Notes under the pieces: generated by a model
Seen by the model: the letters and a program-made list of their open reading frames with translations, nothing else
Told to the model about the DNA's origin: nothing
Database searches by the model: none
Part shown: positions 19,037 to 37,548 of the stretch, in pieces
Layout of the letters: each line of letters begins with the position of its first letter
How positions within the stretch are numbered: the stretch's first letter is position 1
Origin: Bacteroidia bacterium
GTDB lineage: Bacteria > Bacteroidota > Bacteroidia > NS11-12g > UBA955
Reading direction: 5' to 3'
Length of the DNA stretch: 37,559 nt
NCBI GenBank assembly: GCA_030158725.1
Contig: JAOASJ010000091.1
Span: forward strand, 1-37,559
Position numbers and translations under genes: made by a program

Positions 19037-19052
19037 TGTGACTTTGCTCACT
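19037..19052. promoter_or_regulatory. CRP/FNR-type operator upstream of the CPMC protein gene
   Basis: TGTGA-CTTTGC-TCACT fits TGTGA-N6-TCACA with one mismatch in the last base. Its centre (19044.5) is 28.5 bp upstream of the first base of the -7 box at 19073, within 1 bp of the spacing at the two other sites in this window. The N6 core is less symmetric than in those sites, so it is the weakest of the three. Confidence 0.5.
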
Positions 19053-19072: not shown

Positions 19073-19080
19073 TAATTTTG
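19073..19080 (+). promoter_or_regulatory. -7 box for the CPMC/DUF983 genes
   Basis: TAATTTTG, an exact TAnnTTTG match, 11 nt before the ATG at 19092. It has no good -33 TTG but a CRP/FNR-type palindrome upstream, as expected of an activator-dependent promoter. Confidence 0.5.
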
Positions 19081-24613: not shown

Positions 24614-24629
24614 TGTGACAAATGTCACT
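24614..24629. promoter_or_regulatory. CRP/FNR-type operator upstream of the 33-residue ORF and DUF2892 gene
   Basis: TGTGA-CAAATG-TCACT, with GTGACA and TGTCAC forming a perfect 6+2+6 palindrome. Its centre (24621.5) is 29.5 bp upstream of the first base of the TAATTTCG box at 24651, the same distance as at 37533-37548. This is class II activator spacing. Confidence 0.65.
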
Positions 24630-24650: not shown

Positions 24651-24658
24651 TAATTTCG
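24651..24658 (+). promoter_or_regulatory. -7 box for the small membrane ORF and DUF2892 gene
   Basis: TAATTTCG matches TAnnTTTG with one change (C for the third T). A weak box fits activator dependence. The ATG at 24668 is 9 nt further on. Confidence 0.45.
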
Positions 24659-24667
24659 CTTTATCAA

Positions 24668-24769
24668 ATGAATAGAAATTCAAATATCACAAAGGGAATT
24701 ATGTCTGGTTTGGTATATTTGGGTATTACTTTTTTGTTTGCTTTTTTGATTTACAACTTTAAAAAATAA
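24668..24769 (+). CDS. 33-residue single-helix membrane protein
   Basis: A short frame of 33 codons plus stop: MNRNSNITKGIMSG, then a hydrophobic helix (about 14-30), then NFKK. It is correctly placed 9 nt after a -7-like box with an operator upstream, and 11 nt before the DUF2892 gene, so the two are probably cotranscribed. A basic end on each side of one helix suggests a tiny membrane protein. I do not recognise a family; it may be a partner of the DUF2892 protein. Confidence 0.6.
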   Translation: MNRNSNITKGIMSGLVYLGITFLFAFLIYNFKK

Positions 24770-24780
24770 TTATATATAGT

Positions 24781-24993
24781 ATGAAAAAAAACATGGGTTC
24801 TACAGACAGAATTATTCGCGTATTATTGGCAGCAGTTGTTGCTTTCCTTTATTTCGGTAATGTGGTAAGCGGAACAATTGGAATTGTGCTTTTGGTATTG
24901 GCAGCCGTATTTTTGTTAACCAGTATGGTATCTTTTTGCCCACTTTACACATTAGTGGGTGTGAATACTTGCCCAGTGAAAAAAGAAGACTAA
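24781..24993 (+). CDS. DUF2892 (YgaP-like transmembrane) protein
   Basis: 70 residues: a short basic N-terminus with MGSTDRIIRVLLA, two hydrophobic helices (about 11-27 and 30-50), then FCPLYTLVGVNTCPVK with two Cys near the end. This is the DUF2892 domain, which in E. coli YgaP is fused to a rhodanese. Free-standing DUF2892 proteins occur with sulfurtransferase genes, so a role in sulfur handling at the membrane is likely but not shown. It shares its upstream operator type with the rhodanese operon at 35471-37481. Confidence 0.88.
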   Translation: MKKNMGSTDRIIRVLLAAVVAFLYFGNVVSGTIGIVLLVLAAVFLLTSMVSFCPLYTLVGVNTCPVKKED

Positions 24994-34555: not shown

Positions 34556-35134
34556 ATGAAGCGTAAATTGATTTTATTCTTAGGTTGCTTGATAGGTTTG
34601 CTTTTATTAACAGATTGCAGAACAGGATTACTTGTTGAAAGTCCAATTAGTTTTTATGTATTGAGCAATTCATTTGAAGACACAATACCCTTTAAATATT
34701 CATGTGGGAGTTCACAACAATTCCATCCTCAATTGAGTTGGGGTGGCATTGGAGGAGATCCCGATGGAGCAAATCCTCCAGGAAGTTTTGTGATGATTAT
34801 GGACGATCCTGACGCCATTCCAGTAGCTGGATATGTTTGGAACCATTGGGTGGTATATGATATTCCAGGAAGTCTAAGAGAGATTAAAGAAGGCGTTGAC
34901 CGAATAGGCGTTCTTCCTCCAATCGTTAAAAGAGGTATTAACAGTTTTGGCGATACCACCTATGGAGGACCTTGTCCACCGCCAGGTACTGCGCACCGTT
35001 ATCGGTTTAAATTATATGCTATGAAAAATGCAGAATTGGGAATAGGACGCGCAGCAACCGTAGCTCAAATACGCGCTGCTATGGCAAGCAATATTTTGGA
35101 CAGCGCGGAAATGACTGCTGTTTTCAAGCGTTAA
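34556..35134 (+). CDS. YbhB/YbcL family PEBP-like lipoprotein
   Basis: 192 residues with a lipoprotein-type signal: a hydrophobic stretch ending LLLLTDC (Cys at about 21). The PEBP fold is seen from MIMDDPDA, YVWNHWVVYDIPG and GGPCPPPGTAHRYRFKLYA, which form the ligand-binding pocket. Homologues include E. coli YbhB and YbcL; the bacterial role is mostly unknown. It lies 9 nt downstream of the CapA-like gene. The stop overlaps the end of the convergent thioredoxin gene by 4 nt with no terminator visible. Confidence 0.88.
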   Translation: MKRKLILFLGCLIGLLLLTDCRTGLLVESPISFYVLSNSFEDTIPFKYSCGSSQQFHPQLSWGGIGGDPDGANPPGSFVMIMDDPDAIPVAGYVWNHWVVYDIPGSLREIKEGVDRIGVLPPIVKRGINSFGDTTYGGPCPPPGTAHRYRFKLYAMKNAELGIGRAATVAQIRAAMASNILDSAEMTAVFKR

Positions 35135-35427
35135 TTCACACTTGCAATAACTTTCTGCAAATCGGCTGCACTTAGCACCCCACTTTGTCTCCACTTCGAT
35201 TGCCCTTGTTTGAATACCATTAAGGTTGGTACACCCTGTATACGGTATTGAGCTGCAATTGCGGGGTTTTTGTCTACATCTATTTTTATAATTCGGACAT
35301 TTTCTCCCATCTTGGATTTGAGGTCTTCCAAAATTGGTTTCATCATTTTGCAGGGGCCACACCATTCAGCAAAGAAGTCAACCAGCACGGGTGTTTCGCT
35401 TTGTATAATGTCATTAAAATTACTCAT
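35131..35427 (-). CDS. trxA: Thioredoxin
   Basis: 98 residues, a short but complete thioredoxin. The active site is WCGPCKMMKP (C23, C26), and the cis-Pro motif is IQGVPTLMVF. There is no signal peptide, so it is cytoplasmic. It is the last gene of the rhodanese operon, 43 nt after the free rhodanese, and probably reduces persulfides on the sulfurtransferases or releases sulfide from them. This role is inferred from context. Confidence 0.93.
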   Translation of the reverse strand: MSNFNDIIQSETPVLVDFFAEWCGPCKMMKPILEDLKSKMGENVRIIKIDVDKNPAIAAQYRIQGVPTLMVFKQGQSKWRQSGVLSAADLQKVIASVN

Positions 35428-35470: not shown

Positions 35471-35764
35471 TTATGCAAAGCTGTTTTTATAAAAATTAAC
35501 ATTGGTCCATGAACCAGCATTGATACAGTCAACACCAAATAATTTAAGGTATTGTTCGGCTTGAGCACTTCGTCCACCAGAGGCGCAGCAAAGGATTACA
35601 GGACTCGGAAGGCTTTTTATTTTGTCAATATCAGTGGGTAGGTTGTTCAAGGGGATGTTAATTGAGTCGAGAACATGTGCACCCATAAATTCATTGTGTG
35701 TTCTTACATCGACCACAGTACCGACGTTTTCTTTTATTAGATTTTCAAGATTGTATTTCTGCAT
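35471..35764 (-). CDS. Single-domain rhodanese (sulfurtransferase)
   Basis: 97 residues, one rhodanese domain with VVDVRTHNEFMGAHVLDSINIPL and the active loop CASGGRS (C60, preceded by C59). No signal peptide, so cytoplasmic. It would carry sulfur as a persulfide and pass it to acceptors. It lies between the HMA gene (6 nt gap) and thioredoxin. Confidence 0.92.
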   Translation of the reverse strand: MQKYNLENLIKENVGTVVDVRTHNEFMGAHVLDSINIPLNNLPTDIDKIKSLPSPVILCCASGGRSAQAEQYLKLFGVDCINAGSWTNVNFYKNSFA

Positions 35765-35770
35765 ATTTTT

Positions 35771-36067
35771 TTAACTGATTTTACCTACCATGCAACTGGC
35801 ATAACTTTTCATTTGGGTTAGTAAGTCGTTGTCTTCACCAATTTCAGGGTAACCAATTTTGGCAAGTTTTTCACTGAATTGATGGCGGTCAATAGACGCA
35901 TTGTGTTGAATGTCAATACGCGCATTTTCAACATCCACTTTTACCTCATCAACACCTTCTATTTCACTAATTTTATTGTGAATGGTTTTAGCGCATCCAC
36001 TGCATTTAAGATTGGCAACGATAAAGGTGCTATTGGTTTTTTCTGTGTTTAAAATTGTTGTTTCCAT
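35771..36067 (-). CDS. Heavy-metal-associated (HMA) domain protein
   Basis: 98 residues from the ATG at 36067 (the longer frame would overlap the upstream gene). One HMA fold with the metal site LKCSGCAKT (C22, C25), then EIEGVDEVKVDVENARIDIQ. After the HMA domain the C-terminus adds about 20 residues ending YASCMVGKIS with a third Cys (C92). HMA proteins carry Cu(I) or similar soft metals, but in a sulfur operon the thiols could also carry sulfane sulfur. It starts 1 nt after the persulfide dioxygenase-like gene. Confidence 0.88.
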   Translation of the reverse strand: METTILNTEKTNSTFIVANLKCSGCAKTIHNKISEIEGVDEVKVDVENARIDIQHNASIDRHQFSEKLAKIGYPEIGEDNDLLTQMKSYASCMVGKIS

Positions 36068-36068
36068 A

Positions 36069-37481
36069 TTAGCTTTTTGATTTTTGGCAAGCATTTGAAA
36101 TTACAGGAACTGAAGTTTTTGAGATGCCTGAAAATCCAGATTCAACATCTACAAAATTATCCCATCCTCTAGATTTTAATATTGAGGCAGCCACCATACT
36201 TCTGTAGCCCCCTGCACAATGCATAACAAACGGTTTGTCTTTAGGGAATTCAGCGAGGTGGTCGTTGATATAATCGAGAGGAATATTGATTGCATCTTTC
36301 ACATGGTCGGCGTTAAACTCGTTGGCATTTCTAACATCAATAACGATTGGATTCTCAGGAAGAATGCTTTCAAAAGTTTCAGCAGATATTCTTTTTACAG
36401 AATCGAATTCTTTACCATCATTTTTCCAAGCCTCAAAACTGCCATCTAAATAGGCAATTGGATGGTCGTATCCCACACGGGCTAAGCGGGTGATGACTTC
36501 TTTTTCGCGGCCTTTATCTGCAACGATTAAAATTTCTTGTTTGATATCAGGAATTAATGCACCTACCCATGGTGCAAAGTTGCCATCAATACCAATATTG
36601 ATTGAGTTAGGAATAAAGCCTTTTGCAAATTCATTGGCTTCTCGTGTGTCTAAAATGAGTGCGCTGGTTTCATTTGCAACGGCTTCAAAGGTGTCGGGAT
36701 TTAATGCTTGCATGCCACGTTCCATAATGTCATCAAAACTATCGTAACCGCGGATATTCATTAGAACATTTTTTGGGAAATACGCAGGAGGAGTTGTAAG
36801 TCCATCCAGAAGTTCTGTCATGAATTCTTCTTTGCTCATATCTGCTCTCAAGGCATAATTCACTTGTTTTTGATGACCTAAAGTATCAGTGGTTTCTTTG
36901 CTCATATTTTTACCACAAGCGCTACCTGCACCGTGGTTAGGGTATATGATTATATCGTCTGCCAAAGGCATGATTTTATTGCGCAAAGAATCGTATAAAT
37001 GTGCAGCTAGTTTTTCGCTGGTTAATTCAGCAATGACATGTTGGGCAAGATCGGGGCGACCAACATCACCTATGAATAGGGTGTCTCCAGAGATCAGTCC
37101 ATGTTCTTTGCCGTTTTCATCAATAACTAAATAGCAAGTACTTTCCATGGTATGGCCTGGGGTATGTAAAACTTTGACTTGGTAATTGCCAACTTTAAAA
37201 ATTTGATTGTCTTCAGCCACTACTGCATCAAAACCTGGTTTGGCAGTTGGACCATATACAATTTGAGCACCGGTTTTTTTAGCTAAATCGAGGTGACCAG
37301 AAACAAAGTCTGCGTGAAAATGCGTTTCAAAAACGTATTTGATTTTTGCATTGTCTTTATTGGCTCTGTCGATATAGGGTTGAACTTCTCTAAGTGGGTC
37401 GAAGATTGCAGCTTCACCATTGCTTTCTAAATAATATGCAGCGTGTGCGATACATCCGGTATAAATTTGTTCTAATTTCAT
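36069..37481 (-). CDS. Persulfide dioxygenase-like metallo-beta-lactamase fold protein with two rhodanese domains
   Basis: 470 residues. The N-terminal domain (about 1-225) is an ETHE1/Blh-type metallohydrolase fold with THFHAD (H54, H56, D58), H110 in HTPGH and D133 in SGDTLF. ETHE1-type enzymes oxidise glutathione persulfide to sulfite; the iron ligands expected there are present (H54, H110, D133). The first rhodanese (about 265-355) lacks the catalytic Cys: its loop is ADKGRE with D322. The second (about 365-455) is intact, with HCAGGYRS and C422. It is the first gene of a four-gene operon with HMA, rhodanese and thioredoxin. A -7 box and a CRP/FNR-type operator lie upstream. Confidence 0.92.
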   Translation of the reverse strand: MKLEQIYTGCIAHAAYYLESNGEAAIFDPLREVQPYIDRANKDNAKIKYVFETHFHADFVSGHLDLAKKTGAQIVYGPTAKPGFDAVVAEDNQIFKVGNYQVKVLHTPGHTMESTCYLVIDENGKEHGLISGDTLFIGDVGRPDLAQHVIAELTSEKLAAHLYDSLRNKIMPLADDIIIYPNHGAGSACGKNMSKETTDTLGHQKQVNYALRADMSKEEFMTELLDGLTTPPAYFPKNVLMNIRGYDSFDDIMERGMQALNPDTFEAVANETSALILDTREANEFAKGFIPNSINIGIDGNFAPWVGALIPDIKQEILIVADKGREKEVITRLARVGYDHPIAYLDGSFEAWKNDGKEFDSVKRISAETFESILPENPIVIDVRNANEFNADHVKDAINIPLDYINDHLAEFPKDKPFVMHCAGGYRSMVAASILKSRGWDNFVDVESGFSGISKTSVPVISNACQKSKS

Positions 37482-37503
37482 GTGTTTTGATGATTTGATA
37501 CTG

Positions 37504-37511
37504 CAAAATTA
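37504..37511 (-). promoter_or_regulatory. -7 box for the persulfide/rhodanese operon
   Basis: TAATTTTG on the minus strand, an exact TAnnTTTG match 22 nt before the ATG at 37481. The CRP/FNR-type palindrome at 37533-37548 is centred 29.5 bp upstream of its first base. Confidence 0.55.
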
Positions 37512-37532: not shown

Positions 37533-37548
37533 TGTGATAATGGTCACA
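37533..37548. promoter_or_regulatory. CRP/FNR-type operator upstream of the persulfide/rhodanese operon
   Basis: TGTGA-TAATGG-TCACA is an exact match to the E. coli CRP consensus TGTGA-N6-TCACA. It sits at about -41 to the expected start of the minus-strand transcript, the class II position where an activator contacts RNA polymerase. The sequence ends at 37559, so a divergent gene that may share the site cannot be seen. Confidence 0.68.

Follow-up and report, generated by a model that had tools for sequence, protein, structure and literature searches.

A palindromic site stands upstream of a gene for a DUF2892 protein in the stretch of Bacteroidia DNA analysed here (37,559 nucleotides, hereafter the window), and it raises the question of whether the site is an operator and, if so, which protein reads it and in response to what. 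The site, TGTGACAAATGTCACT at 24614-24629 on the plus strand, is a candidate operator built around the perfect palindrome GTGACAAATGTCAC (24615-24628, centre 24621.5). The −7 box TAATTTCG (24651-24658) starts 29.5 from the palindrome centre, leaving a gap of 22 nt between palindrome and box, and transcription is predicted to start at about 24663. A second site lies on the minus strand at 37533-37548 and reads GTGACCATTATCAC on that strand, with its palindrome core at 37534-37547. Its box, TAATTTTG (37504-37511, read downwards from 37511), is again 29.5 from the palindrome centre, with a gap of 22 nt, and puts the predicted transcription start at 37499. The first-pass annotation had reported both the perfect palindrome and the identical spacing, and both observations hold.

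The genes behind these promoters point to sulfur metabolism. Downstream of the first, on the plus strand, are an ORF of 33 residues (24668-24769) and the DUF2892 gene (24781-24993), whose 70-aa protein matches PF11127, YgaP-like_TM, with an E-value of 2.2e-22. The small ORF is present as annotated, while its hydrophobic, supposedly membrane-spanning nature was read from the sequence by eye; hydrophobic ORFs of 31-35 residues, diverged, occupy the same place in three relatives. Downstream of the second promoter, all on the minus strand, are genes for an MBL-rhodanese-rhodanese protein (36069-37481) and, in the same gene run, a protein with an HMA domain (35771-36070; PF00403, E 8.3e-11), a single-domain rhodanese (35471-35764; PF00581, E 1.1e-11) and a thioredoxin (35131-35427; PF00085, E 1.6e-30). 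We argue here that the palindrome is very probably a switch through which a CRP-like protein turns on genes for defence against sulfide and persulfide, and that it recurs in many species of Bacteroidota, set equally far from the gene start.

Class II CRP sites are centred near position −41.5. According to the accessible part of one study, the sigmaA −7 box of Flavobacterium psychrophilum, TAnnTTTG, occupies positions −12 to −5 (PMC9723704), and this rule, together with the box spacing, places the palindrome centres of the window at −41.5. Both window sites thus appear to be class II Crp-type operators, with palindromes centred near the predicted −41.5.

Palindromes also arise by chance, and the site at 24614 could be one of these. 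In the window, GTGAN6TCAC occurs three times against an expectation of 0.37, with three or more copies in one of 100 shuffles, which agrees with the first-pass estimate that the pattern should appear well under once. Looser patterns and the whole genome give no such excess. Three places in the window lie within three mismatches of TGTGACANNTGTCACA, against 2.14 expected, which is not significant. In the genome from which the window comes (2.67 Mb in 131 contigs, 90% complete), GTGAYN4RTCAC has five copies against four for the reversed control, and the relaxed GTRAYN4RTYAC matches at 44 places where its control matches at 97; neither pattern is enriched. We therefore dropped palindrome counting alone as uninformative and, since those counts are at control level, rest the case on geometry and conservation. 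(As a separate observation on this assembly, nearly the same coding stretch occurs at two contig ends, C81:42218 (L388) and C119:35 (L390), probably a repeat at which the assembly was interrupted.)

The geometry was scored by looking for the box pattern [any][A/T]NNTT[T/C]G at gaps of 0 to 40 from each relaxed palindrome. Taken raw, the comparison of genic with intergenic hits that had been proposed for these sites is mixed: three of the exact sites are intergenic and two genic, and the 44 relaxed palindromes, whose flanks were all read, divide into 8 intergenic and 36 genic by a simple ORF caller. With the box included, the comparison favours real sites, as a box stands at gap 22 after five of the eight intergenic palindromes but only one of the 36 genic ones, and at the remaining gaps between 0 and 40 the eight intergenic palindromes together have seven boxes. 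Two of the five are the window sites; the other three precede an OsmC-family gene (C127:23774), genes for cytochrome c-like proteins (C72:41), and a series encoding DUF6132, a pair of rhodaneses, a protein of 83 aa and a rhodanese-thioredoxin protein (C72:18781). Two palindromes inside genes, C66:46795 and C34:71323, were set aside as chance.

Conservation leads to the same conclusion. DUF2892 homologues occur in 31 of the 59 family genomes, own genome counted, and promoters could be compared for 30 of 32 matches. By eye, palindromes with the 22-nt gap precede DUF2892 in the window's genome and, at the same place, in nine relatives (G053, G050, G040, G022, G029, G036, G033, G011 and G044). The gap is 23 nt in G008, G039 has a palindrome without the box, and no palindrome was seen by eye at the remaining loci of the 30. 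Likewise, 15 of 30 MBL-rhodanese loci, own included, have gap-22 sites by eye, so that the second window site has same-gap counterparts at the MBL-rhodanese genes of relatives. A gap scan in which the motif left the third base of each half-site free gave a sharp peak at 22 nt in each set of loci. Among 80 named Bacteroidota loci (Flavobacterium, Pedobacter, Dyadobacter, Chitinophaga, Pontibacter and others), which are not independent because many come from the single genus Flavobacterium, there are 120 intergenic gap-22 sites in 62 loci; gap 23 has 10 sites, and the 38 other gaps average 0.74. The 70 class loci have 43 gap-22 sites in 33 loci, with a mean of 0.24 at other gaps, and the 40 family loci have 15 in nine loci. 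A GTRAY-N4-RTYAC site 22 nt before a NANNTTYG box is thus a geometry conserved across Bacteroidota, mostly by sulfide and persulfide genes, and the operator class is well supported. Although exact palindromes alone are no commoner in the genome than their reversed control, it is very improbable that a chance palindrome would hold its position and gap in this way.

The third GTGAN6TCAC match in the window, GTGACTTTGCTCAC at 19038-19051 on the plus strand, is an imperfect palindrome with a 21-nt gap to TAATTTTG at 19073-19080, and precedes an ORF of 75 aa (19092). Upstream of the same gene, G050, G040 and G013 have perfect palindromes with a 22-nt gap (by eye) and G029 has a weak site with a 21-nt gap, and no such site was read by eye in G022, G033, G036 or G044; the G053 promoter was left out of this comparison. 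The site may be a decaying member of the regulon.

What would such a regulon do? The protein encoded at 36069-37481 matches PDB entries 3tp9 (E 1.2e-68) and 3r2u (E 7.1e-61) over nearly its full length, the latter being CstB. Its Pfam domains, an MBL domain and two rhodanese domains, give it the predicted architecture of a CstB-like persulfide dioxygenase. In the CstR-CstAB system of Staphylococcus aureus, CstR, a CsoR-family repressor that responds to persulfide, controls an MBL-rhodanese-rhodanese enzyme together with rhodanese carriers. The window shares the enzyme and carriers with that system, and its regulator would instead be of the Crp/Fnr type. For the DUF2892 gene, the comparison is with YgaP of Escherichia coli, presumably a rhodanese with the transmembrane domain of the DUF2892 protein, a view with which the Pfam name agrees. 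There, the available portion of one report describes sulfide-responsive control of YgaP by YgaV, a SqrR/BigR-type repressor (PMC9774250), whereas a Crp/Fnr-type activator seems to act here.

Gene neighbourhoods in relatives tie the two window loci together. Shared clusters contain a Crp/Fnr gene, DUF2892, HMA, rhodaneses and thioredoxin, and in some cases MBL-rhodanese as well. These clusters, with the operator and 22-nt gap at both promoters, support the earlier proposal that the two sulfur loci form one regulon. Other genes downstream of gap-22 sites encode OsmC, TauE, an SQR-like flavoprotein, a SoxB-like protein and a sulfur transporter, the NCBIfam scores of the last three being below the curated cut-offs. 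Gap-22 sites also precede genes with no clear sulfur role, namely those for a TetR regulator, a methyltransferase, outer membrane efflux proteins and an OprD-like porin. In sediment amended with NaHS, persulfide dioxygenase transcripts rose, with Bacteroidota among other phyla, according to the part of that study at hand (PMC12345210). The regulon as a whole looks like one for sulfide and persulfide defence. A second palindrome, ATGA[CT]N4AT[CT]A, was also seen by eye farther upstream of MBL-rhodanese at four loci (L076, L077, L078 and L080), and is perhaps a site for another Crp/Fnr protein.

The probable reader of the window operators is a protein that we call R2, of which one member was found in the window's genome, on contig C38. 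Its domains (PF00027, E 1.4e-12; PF13545, E 1.1e-11; PF00325, E 1.2e-6) place it in the Crp/Fnr superfamily, and it falls below the NCBIfam cut-offs for CRP (46.3 bits, cut-off 266) and FNR (29.7 bits, cut-off 228). The family occurs in 178 of 295 class genomes at E ≤ 1e-20, and its relatives among named records are almost all from Bacteroidota. A structure model of the homologue from Flavobacterium reichenbachii (pLDDT 85) has a Crp-type fold, with 3dv8 as its best match by E-value and HcpR of Porphyromonas gingivalis (9day) as a more distant one. In what is accessible of PMC13370916, HcpR of Bacteroidota is a Crp-family regulator concerned with nitrosative stress and haem; it is like R2 in family and phylum, but has different genes under its control. 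A literature search that left most subscription journals outside its scope found no description of R2 among the papers listed.

R2-type genes lie near those for DUF2892, MBL-rhodanese, rhodaneses, Trx and TauE. In relatives, an R2-family gene adjoins DUF2892 or precedes MBL-rhodanese, and in several it is followed by DUF6132, HMA, rhodaneses, OsmC and thioredoxin. The search that collected the 80 named loci was made with R2, and hence the R2 linkage there is by choice. In the window's genome the R2 gene is the third of a clpP-clpX-R2 run (6644-9201 of C38, L121), 3 nt behind clpX. The same order, judged by gene size and order, is found in G053, G029, G050 and G040, and an operator scan upstream of R2 in these five clpP-clpX-R2 loci found none.

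The recognition helix of the R2 on C38 is SSREVISR. Arg180, Val182, Ser184, Arg185 and also Cys75 are invariant in all 18 aligned R2 members, in which residue 181 is either Glu or Val (Glu on C38). By profile alignment, R2 positions 180, 181 and 185 match CRP Arg180, Glu181 and Arg185. In CRP bound to TGTGA, as given in the available text of PMC11253593, Arg180 contacts G2, and Glu181 and Arg185 contact the G4:C4 pair. R2 thus resembles E. coli CRP in its fold, in these helix residues, in a TGTGA-type half-site and in a class II centre near −41.5. It differs in that the half-site here is GTGAC, that Glu72 and Arg82 are not kept, that the promoters have the Bacteroidota −7 box, and that a Val181 subgroup pairs with GTAAC. 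Two other proteins of the genome, the FNR-like R3 (C6) and a protein on C27, were set aside as readers by their recognition helix sequences.

If R2 reads these sites, residue 181 and the operator should vary together. From 190 loci with 185 distinct regulators, some possibly counted twice where ORF starts differ, we dropped 65 for want of a linked site (45 Glu, 20 Val) and kept 120. At the third base of the distal half-site, the 132 Glu-type sites have G in 102 cases, A in 29 and T in one, and the 60 Val-type sites have A in 58 and G in two; the corresponding counts for the proximal half are 101 G, 30 A and 1 T for the Glu-type sites and 28 A, 22 T, 5 C and 5 G for the Val-type sites. Every site has at least one GTGA half at 78 of 80 Glu-type loci, and some site has no GTGA half at 39 of 40 Val-type loci. 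When each locus is instead classed by the majority of its sites, the expected pairing holds for 35 of 40 Val-type loci and 78 of 80 Glu-type loci. Residue 181 of R2 and the operator thus change together, Glu accompanying GTGAC and Val accompanying GTAAC, though the pattern covers only about five switches. The pairing of Glu181 with GTGAC is what the Glu181 contact of CRP would lead one to expect. On a helix-masked tree the residue changed at least five times, and in four independent Glu/Val pairs on supported branches the operator was on average concordant in 3.2 and discordant in 0.0, with a single discordant pair in a few of the 200 pairings. We dropped a statistical claim from independent pairs, as a sign test on four to five pairs cannot reach 0.05. 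Ebright and colleagues reportedly obtained altered-specificity mutants of CAP Glu181 in 1984, in which a change at residue 181 goes with a change of G4:C4 to A:T; in R2 the variation is natural and extends across many genomes. The window's genome itself holds a Val-type site, GTAACAAAAGTTAC (C72:18781-18794, L396), identical in G029 and G053 (L411, L412). G029 has a Val-type regulator, and none was found in the window's genome (90% complete) or in G053 (86% complete).

Several results run contrary to a simple pairing of regulator and site. Two genomes that are 99% complete, G013 and G022, have correctly spaced GTGAC sites at MBL-rhodanese, and G013 has one before the 75-aa gene too, yet the search for Crp-HTH proteins in them found a Val-type R2 and another protein, R1. 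Their other cNMP-domain proteins have different helices where these were read (part of the G022 set only), and PF13545 matches of about 240 aa (G013:C7, G022:C22) appear not to be Crp proteins, having another winged helix near the N-terminus. G016 and G026 have GTGAT..RTCAC sites, and no R2 was found in either. These four genomes contradict any strict rule tying every GTGAC site to a Glu-type R2, and we reject such a rule.

These exceptions bear on the alternative that R1 (C81 in the window's genome) or its relatives bind the same class II operators, alone or sharing them with R2. R1 consists of a receiver-like N-terminus (by eye), a cNMP domain and a Crp HTH, and each of the 11 genus members searched has an R1-sized protein with that HTH. 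R1-like BLAST matches occur in seven of the 80 named loci, possibly through the receiver domain only. Because GTGA-type sites exist in four genomes where no Glu-type R2 was found, R1 may share sites. However, the R1 helix, ATETLIR in the window's genome, G013 and G022, has no equivalent of the G2-contacting Arg180, while G2 is conserved in the sites. Furthermore, operator type follows residue 181 of R2, and an R2-type gene adjoins DUF2892 in at least nine of the 31 family genomes that have DUF2892, a set not chosen by R2. We thus regard a role for R1 as unlikely, and R2 as the probable reader.

What R2 might sense is suggested by its ligand domain. Of the CRP cAMP residues named in the accessible portion of PMC11253593 (Glu72, Arg82 and Ser83), R2 keeps the Ser, but not Glu72 or Arg82. 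The invariant Cys75 lies just before the former position of the cyclic-nucleotide cassette. A second cysteine six residues beyond it is present in seven of the 18 members (alignment A1) and in all 24 rows of another alignment (A3). By type, this Cys-X5-Cys pair occurs in 24 of 24 Glu-type A3 rows, five of seven Glu-type A1 rows and two of 11 Val-type A1 rows, the others having Cys75 alone. Sulfane sulfur or a persulfide, sensed at Cys75, could be the signal, although its identity is a guess. The signal could instead be oxygen, nitric oxide or redox state, with the sulfur genes responding within a broader oxidative or anaerobic programme, and this would be compatible with either R1 or R2 as reader. 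Cys75 is a generic redox residue, the regulon includes cytochrome c-like proteins (C72:41), and in relatives it touches a gene that in the window is close to cytochrome oxidase genes (named as such by eye). However, many of the linked genes are sulfide and persulfide genes. The FNR helix has the form Val-Glu...Arg, and R2 does not have a helix of this type; nor does the R2 of the window's genome have a cysteine ahead of Cys75, and so it has no FNR-type N-terminal cluster. Such a signal is a serious possibility, but we consider it somewhat unlikely.

We thus favour, with fair confidence, the model in which a class II Crp/Fnr activator, probably R2, uses the palindrome as its operator and raises defence genes, with sulfane sulfur or persulfide as the more tentative choice of signal. 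Promoters of this kind would offer RNA polymerase with the primary sigma factor a −7 box but no good −33 element, a weakness for which a dimeric activator at −41.5, which appears to be R2, would compensate, with Arg180, Glu181 and Arg185 of its recognition helix reading the GTGAC half-site. Activation would then raise the persulfide dioxygenase-rhodanese, sulfur-carrier rhodaneses, thioredoxin, OsmC and the YgaP-like membrane protein.

Sulfide-responsive regulators are best known elsewhere as ArsR, CsoR or sigma54-type proteins. If our reading is right, Bacteroidota would have a Crp/Fnr route for the sulfide response, with regulons predictable from sequence alone, and DUF2892, rhodanese and small membrane genes would become testable as persulfide-handling parts. 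It would also provide a natural test of a CRP recognition code that was derived from mutants. More tentatively, phylum-wide class II activators of the Crp/Fnr family might be the main persulfide sensor-regulator of Bacteroidota, with an invariant cysteine replacing the nucleotide pocket and residue 181 giving two DNA dialects, Glu with GTGAC and Val with GTAAC. If true, a cell with paralogues, as in G029, could use each for a sulfur regulon of its own.
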